Positions 6,797-10,451 of a stretch of 64,000 nt of DNA are shown here, piece by piece. The notes below the pieces were generated by a model, which did not search any database, was not told where the DNA came from, and saw nothing but the letters and a program-made list of their open reading frames with translations. This stretch comes from an uncultured Eudoraea sp. (GTDB taxonomy: Bacteria > Bacteroidota > Bacteroidia > Flavobacteriales > Flavobacteriaceae). Each line of letters starts with the position of its first letter. The stretch's first letter is position 1. Made by a program: the position numbers and the translations under genes. Location: assembly GCF_947258925.1 (NCBI RefSeq), contig NZ_CAMYKG010000012.1, forward strand, positions 1 through 64,000. The letters are read 5' to 3'.

Positions 6797-8758
6797 TTAA
6801 GCTTCTGTACGCTCTAATTCGAGCCTATACTTTTTTAAAGCCAACAATGAGAAATAGCGTTTGTAATTCCTGTAGGAAACCATTGTTGTCTTATAAAATA
6901 ACCCGGTTATAGGTTGAACGGGCCAGTCGCCATCTTCCTGTTGCTGATCAATAAGCCAATTTATCGCTTTTAATAGTCTGGGGTCTTTGGCATAACCCCC
7001 ATTTAATAATGCGAGTATGCTCCAGGCTGTCTGATCTACCACACTTGCCCTGGCTTGGATGTAATGTCTTGCCAGGGCGGTCTCCTGTGCTTCACCCCAA
7101 CCGCCATCTTCTTTTTGTTTAGACCAAAGGTAGGTACAAGCATTCTGTATTGCCTTATGATCTTTGGGCAACCCATACATGGTCAGCCCTTCAAGAACAA
7201 AACAAATGCCATAGGTAAAACAGAGGCCCCAAAGGGCTTCCCAGCTTCCGTCTTTGTATTGCGAATTCAGCAAGTATTTTACCGCCCGTTCCATTGCTTT
7301 TTCCATTTCTATTGTGAACAAATGGGGCCGGCTTTGTTTTATTCGCATAAAACATTGAATAATACTGGCTGTGCATTCTACATAGGAATGGTCAACCATA
7401 ATATCAACAAATACATTTGCTGCGTTGAACCACTCCAGTTTAGGGCTCCCAATGGCTTTGTCCACGCTGGTCCACCCACCATCATCTCCCTGAAGTAGCA
7501 TAATAAAATCAATAGCCATTATAATTCTTTCATCAGATAGTATTTCGTCTCCCAAGCCCTCAGTTTCCAAAAGGGCTTTAACAGCCTCAGCCGTGCAATC
7601 AGATACTACCCAGCCATTATCCAGGTAACTGAAAGTCCAACCACCTGCTCGGGGTAGGCGATGGTATTTAAAAGGATCTTTGAGTTCTTTCATGACCTGG
7701 TTATCCATCAGAAATTTACGGGTCCTTAGGGTTATTGGATTTAACAATGGATCAGTACAATCCTTACCTATAGCCTGTAAAAAGAACCCATTATCCCAGG
7801 TATAGGTATTCGTAAATCCCTGCATTAATATTTCATCTTCACTCTCCCATAGGTATAAAGGAAGTTTTTCCCATGATTTATCCAATTTCTCCTGTTCTCC
7901 CCTAAAATGGTACACCAAAGTATTGTAAACGGCATTAACAGGAGCTTGCCTTATAAACGAAGAATTTTCATCTTCATATTCAATATGTTCATATACCAAT
8001 GCAAGCGCCTTCTTTTTAATGAATTTGGGAATGATAGGATCTATTCTTTTTATCCACCACATTGAAATTTTGAATATTCGCGTTTCGGGGAAGATATTAT
8101 CCGTATCTGCAAATGTTCCTCTGTGCTTGGCAAAGTTTATCTTTTCGTAATCTTCCTTGTATAATTCCTTTCTTAGTTGCAGAATTAGTTCATCCGGTTC
8201 AATTTTAAGGCGCTCCCTGTAGAAGTAGCACATAGGCAAATAGATAATCCTTACATAGCCCGAGATTTTTCTAGGGTGAAAGGGAAACCAGCTGGGAAGT
8301 ATATAAAGTTCCGGAGGTACCGGGGCAACCCCCTTATAGGAATACAAATTTAAAAATGAAAGGATAAATTTACACCAACTTGCCGCATACAGGGGTCCGC
8401 CTTTTTCATGTATCCAATTCAAAGCATTTTTTAATTCAGTCTCTGTAGCTGAATGACCCAAAAAACGCAAGGCCACATAATTTATTACACTGGTAAAAAT
8501 TGTGCCTACCTTGGATTCCTGATGCATTCCAAAACTTCCATCAGGCAATTGATGCCTGAGGATATAATTACTCATTTTAGTTCTTGTTGCGGTGCTCATG
8601 GGCTGCCCGCATATTCTCATAGCAAAAATGTACAGGGGTAATAGGAAAAATGGGCCATCATAGGGAACTGGCCAGGTTCCTTCCGGGGTTTGATTAGCCG
8701 CCATCCACTTATAAACTTTACGAATAGCTTGCTCTATTTTATGCTTTGGGTTGGTCAT
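6797..8758 (-). CDS. osc: oxidosqualene cyclase (lanosterol/arborinol-synthase-type triterpene cyclase)
   Basis: OSC catalytic VSDCTAEA (codons 387-391, 7586-7600) rather than the SHC DXDD; FVDIMVDHSYVECTAS, DGSWEALWGLCFTYG, DGDWPVQPITGLFYKTTMVSYRNYKRYFSLLALKKY; QW-type repeats. Confidence 0.95.
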   Translation of the reverse strand: MTNPKHKIEQAIRKVYKWMAANQTPEGTWPVPYDGPFFLLPLYIFAMRICGQPMSTATRTKMSNYILRHQLPDGSFGMHQESKVGTIFTSVINYVALRFLGHSATETELKNALNWIHEKGGPLYAASWCKFILSFLNLYSYKGVAPVPPELYILPSWFPFHPRKISGYVRIIYLPMCYFYRERLKIEPDELILQLRKELYKEDYEKINFAKHRGTFADTDNIFPETRIFKISMWWIKRIDPIIPKFIKKKALALVYEHIEYEDENSSFIRQAPVNAVYNTLVYHFRGEQEKLDKSWEKLPLYLWESEDEILMQGFTNTYTWDNGFFLQAIGKDCTDPLLNPITLRTRKFLMDNQVMKELKDPFKYHRLPRAGGWTFSYLDNGWVVSDCTAEAVKALLETEGLGDEILSDERIIMAIDFIMLLQGDDGGWTSVDKAIGSPKLEWFNAANVFVDIMVDHSYVECTASIIQCFMRIKQSRPHLFTIEMEKAMERAVKYLLNSQYKDGSWEALWGLCFTYGICFVLEGLTMYGLPKDHKAIQNACTYLWSKQKEDGGWGEAQETALARHYIQARASVVDQTAWSILALLNGGYAKDPRLLKAINWLIDQQQEDGDWPVQPITGLFYKTTMVSYRNYKRYFSLLALKKYRLELERTEA

Positions 8759-8849
8759 TAATGAAAAACAAATTATAATTTACGGCAATTAATTTAGTGG
8801 CCCATGATTAAGCTAATAATAAACTATATAGCAGATATTAATTCCATTG

Positions 8850-8857
8850 CAAATATA
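8850..8857 (-). promoter_or_regulatory. candidate -7 element TATATTTG for the oxidosqualene cyclase gene
   Basis: Matches Bacteroidetes TAnnTTTG on the minus strand about 92 nt upstream of the ATG; no convincing -33 TTG. Confidence 0.35.
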
Positions 8858-8954
8858 ATTCAATTTAGTTTTTAGTTCTGTTTTTTACAGGTTTGTATAC
8901 ACCTGCTAAGGAATAAAAAACAATAGATTTTTTTCAAGTTTATCTTTAATGCAA

Positions 8955-8962
8955 TACCTTTG
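8955..8962 (+). promoter_or_regulatory. candidate -7 element TACCTTTG for the squalene monooxygenase gene
   Basis: Matches TAnnTTTG upstream of 9063; -33 TTG not evident. Confidence 0.35.
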
Positions 8963-8969
8963 TCTCATT

Positions 8970-8990
8970 AGCTTATACATTGTATAAGCT
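8970..8990. promoter_or_regulatory. perfect palindrome AGCTTATACA-T-TGTATAAGCT, candidate operator
   Basis: 10-bp perfect arms around one base, just downstream of the candidate -7 at 8955-8962 in the divergent intergenic region. Confidence 0.6.
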
Positions 8991-9062
8991 GTTTTCATGA
9001 AAGCTAAGGTGCAATCAGGGAAAACAGCCATAACTAAATGTAATGATATTTAGAAAAGACAA

Positions 9063-10451
9063 ATGGTAAACAATAGAACAAACAAGGATATTGATGTACT
9101 GATTGTTGGTGCAGGTATCGCCGGTGCTTCGTTGGCCGCTAATTTGGCCAAAACGGGAAAGAACATTGTTGTAGTTGAAAGAGATTTGAGCGAAAGAGAT
9201 GTTATCATCGGTGAATTGTTACAGCCAGGTGGGGTACAGAAGCTAGAAGAGATGGGTTTTTCATCATTTATAAACGATATTGATGCACAGCCTGTTTATG
9301 GCTATGATATTATTTATGAAGAACGTGATTATGTTATACCCTATCCAAATAAGAATGGCGAACCTTGCGGATATGGATTTAGAAATGGGGCTTTTTTACA
9401 GAATATACGGAAGCACATATTGGCACAGCCCAATATAAGAGTTATTGAAGGGACGGTTACCGAGCTAATTGAAGCAAATGAAGCCATTACTGGTGTAAGA
9501 TATAAACTCAAAGGGGCTACTGATGAAGAATCTCTTTATGCGCATCTTACTATTGTTACTGATGGCCCTTTATCCATCTTTCGTGAGAAATTATCTAAAC
9601 CGGTTAAACAAGTAAATGGCTTTTTTCTTGGACTTTTAATGAAAGATTGTGAGATGCCTTTTGCAAATCACGGACATCTTGTAATGGGTGATCATCCACC
9701 AATGGTTATATATCCTGTTACTTCTACATCCTGGAGGGTTCTTATAGATTTTAAAGGAGAAAAACCTCCAAGGTTGGGTAAGGATATCAGACAATCACTA
9801 TTGGAAAAGTTTGAAAATGCCATACCTCAAAGCGCAAGGCCTGCTTTTGTAGCTGCCGTTGAAAAAGGAAAATTCAAAACGTTCCCGAACCATAGACTAC
9901 CTGCAAGCCCGGTAAATAAGGCCGGTGCAGTACTTCTGGGGGATGCACTAAATATGAGACACCCTTTGACTGGGGGAGGAATGACCGCAGCTTTCAACGA
10001 TGTTTTAAGGCTGAGTAATAATCTCGAAAAGGTCAAGGATTTTAGTAATAAAAGGCAGCTTACTAAAGCCATCAAAAACTTCTACGAGAAACGTCATCTT
10101 GGAACACAAACAACAAATATTTTGGCTGATGGCCTTTATGGGGTAGTTTATAATGCCGATTTAAGAAATGCTTTCTTTGAATATGTGAGCAGAGGGGATA
10201 AGTATGCCGAGGAAACCTGCTCTATTCTTGCGGGACTTAACAAAGACAAGAAATTATTACTGAATCACTTTATTGGGATGGCCAGATATGGGACCCAATT
10301 AAAGATAAGTTCAGAAAAGAAAAGTGTTGTTGTAACTGAATCTATTACTATGGTAAAAGATGCAGTTGGTATTATTACCCCACTACTTCTTTCCGAAAAA
10401 CCGGATCCGGGAAATAAATTAATGCTGGAGGCATTGAACCGGATAGTGTAA
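9063..10451 (+). CDS. smo: squalene monooxygenase (squalene epoxidase)
   Basis: VLIVGAGIAGASLAANLAKTGKNIVVVERDL, IIGELLQPGGVQKLEEMG, GDALNMRHPLTGGGMTAAFNDV: signatures of the ERG1/SQLE family. Confidence 0.94.
   Translation: MVNNRTNKDIDVLIVGAGIAGASLAANLAKTGKNIVVVERDLSERDVIIGELLQPGGVQKLEEMGFSSFINDIDAQPVYGYDIIYEERDYVIPYPNKNGEPCGYGFRNGAFLQNIRKHILAQPNIRVIEGTVTELIEANEAITGVRYKLKGATDEESLYAHLTIVTDGPLSIFREKLSKPVKQVNGFFLGLLMKDCEMPFANHGHLVMGDHPPMVIYPVTSTSWRVLIDFKGEKPPRLGKDIRQSLLEKFENAIPQSARPAFVAAVEKGKFKTFPNHRLPASPVNKAGAVLLGDALNMRHPLTGGGMTAAFNDVLRLSNNLEKVKDFSNKRQLTKAIKNFYEKRHLGTQTTNILADGLYGVVYNADLRNAFFEYVSRGDKYAEETCSILAGLNKDKKLLLNHFIGMARYGTQLKISSEKKSVVVTESITMVKDAVGIITPLLLSEKPDPGNKLMLEALNRIV

Follow-up and report, generated by a model that had tools for sequence, protein, structure and literature searches.

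An oxidosqualene cyclase–squalene monooxygenase gene pair in an uncultured Eudoraea species and its probable arborane-type triterpenol product

Which triterpenol would a stretch of flavobacterial DNA direct if it encodes an oxidosqualene cyclase (OSC) and a squalene monooxygenase (SMO) head to head? We asked this of a 64,000-nucleotide stretch from an uncultured Eudoraea sp. (hereafter the window). Both enzymes have a precedent in the genus: OSC and SMO in Eudoraea were catalogued in 2016, those of E. adriatica being G504DRAFT_2316 and G504DRAFT_2315 (PMC4919349), and for E. adriatica the synthesis of arborane triterpenols by the OSC has been reported (Banta et al. 2017 PNAS 114:245-250, cited in PMC9360977 and PMC6678751). 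The evidence set out below makes it very probable that the pair studied here is the Eudoraea arborane-triterpenol locus and makes a pentacyclic arborane-type triterpenol.

Identity of the two proteins

A first-pass annotation of this DNA had described a minus-strand protein with C-terminal OSC signatures and no squalene-hopene cyclase (SHC) DXDD motif, and divergent from it a plus-strand gene with squalene epoxidase signatures. Both open reading frames were recovered with the same coordinates and strands (Table 1), and direct reading of the cyclase agreed letter for letter: VSDCTAEA lies at residue 385, VDHSYVECTAS at 455, WGLCFTYG at 510 and DGDWP at 609, and the SHC motif DXDD (D.DD) occurs nowhere in the 653 residues. 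The catalytic Asp387, which corresponds to Asp455 of human lanosterol synthase (LSS), is inside the DCTAE motif. The protein scored 521.6 bits with TIGR01787, the model for squalene/oxidosqualene cyclases (cut-off 322.7), and in a PDB comparison its best solved relative was human LSS (E=2.6e-119, 33% identity). It did not reach the cut-off of NCBIfam TIGR03463 osq_cycl (547.5 bits vs 851); since the other Bacteroidota OSCs that we found also fall short, TIGR03463 fits a narrower group. Judged from its sequence, the 653-aa protein is an OSC.

The 462-aa protein encoded on the plus strand carries GAGIAG at residue 16, GELLQPGG at 50 and GDALNMRHPLTGGGMT at 293. These motifs, together with the match to Pfam SE (242.6 bits, cut-off 20.1) and to human squalene monooxygenase (SQLE), its nearest PDB relative (E=8.7e-84), bear out the squalene epoxidase assignment. 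It has the FAD motif GxGxxG and, at human positions, Gln168, Tyr195, Tyr335 and GDA...HPLTGGGMT; none of the aligned Eudoraea SMOs departs from the three residues or the HPLTGGGMT block. Unlike these, the SMO of Planktothrix and the one other Bacteroidota SMO have His and Phe at positions 168 and 195. By these motifs and matches the protein is a eukaryote-type squalene monooxygenase. For both proteins, scores of this size lie well outside what chance similarity could give. The intergenic region contains a candidate Bacteroidota -7 box, and TAnnTTTG recurs at the corresponding alignment position of six loci.

Table 1. Positions of the genes and elements discussed in the text.
Feature	Position	Strand	Basis or remark
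Oxidosqualene cyclase (OSC), 653 aa	6797..8758	-	TIGR01787; Pfam SQHop_cyclase N and C; human LSS match
Divergent intergenic region, 304 bp	8759..9062	none	Between OSC and SMO
Candidate Bacteroidota -7 box TACCTTTG	8955-8962	+	Consensus match only; about 100 bp before SMO start
Squalene monooxygenase (squalene epoxidase, SMO), 462 aa, eukaryote-type motifs	9063..10451	+	Pfam SE; human SQLE match
Three-gene row: MMPL/RND transporter, LolA-like protein, squalene synthase	L037:459-4963 (contig C59)		Own genome

Distribution and phylogeny of the gene pair

Among the closest public loci, the cyclase is 90% and 88% identical to those of two uncultured Eudoraea MAGs, 84.6% identical to that of E. adriatica DSM 19308 and 84% identical to that of Flavobacteriaceae bin181, while the SMO is 84.4% identical to its E. 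adriatica counterpart. The source is a Eudoraea species other than E. adriatica, and its cyclase is the orthologue of the E. adriatica enzyme, in the same genomic position and with the same substitutions. Cyclase genes were present in 8 of the 10 species genomes of the genus; outside Eudoraea, none was found among 301 Flavobacteriaceae genomes. Across the phylum, 5 of 396 genomes had an OSC, and four of these five form a distinct group.

The same divergent OSC-SMO pair was found, with a like neighbourhood, in loci L001-L005, on contig C38 (described below) and in G105, and the OSC was paired with an SMO wherever the site was read. Flanking genes for a BNR-repeat protein, DinB, Lactamase_B_2 and DUF885 are common to the window, L001-L003 and C38, and partly to G105, the most distant member, a pattern consistent with vertical inheritance at a single site. 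Between near relatives, the OSC has a dN of 0.06-0.11 with dS saturated, and it is under strong purifying selection. The only highly complete genome of the genus without the cyclase, G306 (100% complete), is also without close copies of two neighbour genes, and keeps the squalene synthase and RND/LolA-like genes; loss of the whole region or an assembly gap is possible.

The assembly that yielded the window holds a second OSC-SMO pair on C38, a 38-kb contig. For about 30 kb C38 and the window are collinear, with DNA identity of 68-81%; E. adriatica DNA is a closer match to C38 (87% over 9 kb) than the window is (77%). On C38 the genes for the OSC and for an alcohol dehydrogenase carry frameshifts, and a 110-bp stretch is 97% identical to one at the extreme beginning of the window contig, as at a co-assembly break. 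Collinearity beyond the pair, closeness to E. adriatica and the frameshifts rule out a paralogue or duplication, and the best reading of C38 is that a second Eudoraea species contributed this contig to the bin. Contamination of the window's assembly is given as 0.02, despite C38.

Human LSS, one plant OSC, the Planktothrix and Streptomyces proteins, four further OSCs from Bacteroidota and a single SHC were combined with the Eudoraea cyclases in one tree, a sampling with few outgroups and without myxobacterial, methanotroph or planctomycete OSCs. The Eudoraea cyclases formed one clade with 100/100 support on a long branch, nearer the OSCs than the SHC both in this sparsely rooted tree and by BLAST scores. 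Clustering with SHCs, along with turnover of squalene but not of oxidosqualene, had been named at first pass as grounds for abandoning the OSC reading; the cyclase instead joins its congeners on the OSC side, apart from the SHC. The clade agrees with the 2016 survey, which put Eudoraea by itself in group 2a, apart from Fluviicola (PMC4919349). Fluviicola taffensis, compared here by description only, is similar in having a Bacteroidota OSC without downstream sterol genes, but it is reported to make cycloartenol and does not cluster with Eudoraea (PMC4919349).

Other arrangements of these genes were seen among the sequences compared. In other Bacteroidota (G686, G597 and G567), open reading frames of 1136-1156 aa join an N-terminal squalene-monooxygenase-like FAD domain to a C-terminal OSC (L033:5149-8559(-), L034:3492-6962(+) and L035:3743-7204(+)), and some of them adjoin P450 and Rieske genes; our literature search found no description of an SMO-OSC fusion. 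On plasmid p2 of Planktothrix agardhii (L030:2737-13869), an OSC, a squalene monooxygenase, a squalene/phytoene synthase and three P450 genes lie together with transposases on one side, a sterol-type and possibly mobile cyanobacterial cluster. A linear plasmid of Streptomyces sp. YIM 121038 (L031:5992-10063) carries in a row an OSC-like cyclase, with Tyr at the His232 position, a squalene/phytoene synthase and an FAD oxidoreductase.

Active-site pocket and likely product

Pocket contact residues of human LSS were taken from the docking tables of PMC8911567 and located in the cyclase by alignment to human LSS. The two enzymes (human LSS, PDB 1w6k) share the fold family and an intact catalytic frame, comprising Asp455, Cys456, Cys533, Trp192, Trp387, Phe444, Phe521, Ile524, Trp581 and Phe696 in human numbering, but differ in the pocket by W230S, C231G, H232Y, C233V, T381F, Y503V and N697Y. 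These changes recur in all six Eudoraea rows, and in the C38 fragment as far as it is covered; Ser166, Gly167, Tyr168, Val169, Val432 and Tyr622 of the cyclase are common to all Eudoraea aligned. The cyclase has Tyr168 and Val432 in place of the His232 and Tyr503 pair of lanosterol and cycloartenol synthases; human LSS has that pair, as do the aligned OSCs of Planktothrix and of other Bacteroidota. In human LSS, the last deprotonation, which yields lanosterol, is ascribed to His232 together with Tyr503.

The pocket of the E. adriatica enzyme is identical at every human-LSS contact position checked except 702, where our cyclase has Val for Ile. The two also differ at 389, where ours has Asn and E. 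adriatica has Cys, and at 446, with Tyr in ours and Phe in E. adriatica (human numbering); all three positions vary among other Eudoraea too. A plant terpene cyclase (8j5z) also has Tyr at the His232 position, but it is 34% identical, belongs to a separate clade with human LSS and differs at other pocket residues. An AlphaFold model of the cyclase made from six close sequences was too poor for use (mean pLDDT 49). The 2017 account by Banta and colleagues reportedly names eudoraenol and adriaticol and gives four diagnostic residues. The 653-aa cyclase is probably an arborane-type (eudoraenol-type) triterpenol synthase.

The first-pass annotation had proposed the pathway of E. adriatica or a related one, which might end in an unmodified pentacyclic or tetracyclic triterpenol. 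The Eudoraea origin, the fully supported clade and the shared active-site substitutions speak for the proposed pathway; as to the product, a pocket that lacks both His232 and Tyr503 and matches that of E. adriatica makes the pentacyclic arborane alternative likelier than the tetracyclic one. As read from the genes, an unmodified pentacyclic arborane-type triterpenol would be the likeliest product.

An ordinary bacterial lanosterol-type synthase, with an unmodified tetracyclic sterol as its product, would suit the VSDCTAE motif and Val453, which is regarded as marking bacterial lanosterol synthases (PMC4919349) and is equally present in E. adriatica; LAS was also the name that Wei et al. 2016 at first gave to the Eudoraea cyclases on the basis of sequence. 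We nevertheless consider such an enzyme improbable, given that Tyr and Val replace His232 and Tyr503 throughout the Eudoraea rows and that arborane triterpenols are reported from E. adriatica, whose pocket is the same. Counting against an arborane product is the 15% of cyclase residues that differ from E. adriatica, which, with the substitutions at 702, 389 and 446, might indicate an enzyme that has diverged and turns oxidosqualene into another triterpenol, pentacyclic or not. This too seems unlikely, since the major pocket changes are all shared, the three substituted positions are variable in the genus and purifying selection is strong. An SHC acting on squalene is scarcely credible: the superfamily is the same and the Pfam domains are named after SHC, but the DXDD motif is missing, the SHC equivalog model gave 259 bits against a cut-off of 431, SHCs matched with an E of only about 1e-40 and 25% identity (compared with 33% for human LSS), and both the position in the tree and the SMO partner at every site read point to an OSC.

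Squalene supply, proposed route and possible export

Genome searches for squalene synthase and cyp51 had been suggested at first pass. The former is encoded on contig C59 of the same genome (TIGR01559, 449.9 bits, cut-off 286.75); it is of eukaryote type and rare in the family (4 of 301 Flavobacteriaceae). A profile search for P450 (PF00067) found none in the 94%-complete genome. The window was also said to be without sterol tailoring genes, and a Pfam scan of 37 window ORFs agrees, with no P450, Rieske oxygenase or fatty-acid/sterol hydroxylase among them. With a squalene synthase present, no P450 and no tailoring enzyme in the window, the triterpenol is probably left unmodified.

We infer the chemistry, the product and its membrane role as follows. 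Squalene from the C59 synthase would be epoxidised with O2 by the SMO flavoprotein, giving 2,3-oxidosqualene. The cyclase would fold this substrate, and Asp387 would protonate the epoxide. Because the sterol-ending His232 and Tyr503 are replaced, and W230S, C231G, C233V and N697Y remodel the same end of the pocket, the cation would run on to a fifth ring. The product, as in E. adriatica, would be a pentacyclic triterpenol of the arborane type, 3-hydroxylated, and would probably serve as a membrane lipid.

In each of the six Eudoraea genomes read at this site, genes for an MMPL/RND transporter and a LolA-like protein lie directly upstream of the squalene synthase. The 746-aa transporter scored 283 bits with the HAE3 group, 130 with HpnN and 81 with BstA, all under the models' own cut-offs, and is only distantly like HpnN, BstA and NPC1. 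Among RND transporters, HpnN moves hopanoids and BstA is tied to bacterial sterols (PMC10942540), so export of the triterpenol or of another squalene-derived lipid is a testable guess. By analogy, Eudoraea might have a dedicated route, encoded with the squalene synthase, that carries the arborane triterpenol to the outer membrane; we hold this to be possible but rather doubtful. The same three-gene row occurs with weaker similarity in flavobacterium G103, where no OSC was found, and G278 has a squalene synthase without RND/LolA-like genes in the stretch read. If true, the RND/LolA-like route would be a possible arborane counterpart of HpnN hopanoid transport.

The OSC-SMO pair described here is already known in the genus, and this is a well-conserved further example and no new pathway. 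It adds one species to a bacterial genus reported to make arborane triterpenols, compounds that otherwise serve as land-plant markers in sediments, and leaves the picture of the known pathway unchanged. The pocket signature does not vary within the genus and can therefore be of use in recognising such synthases in metagenomes.
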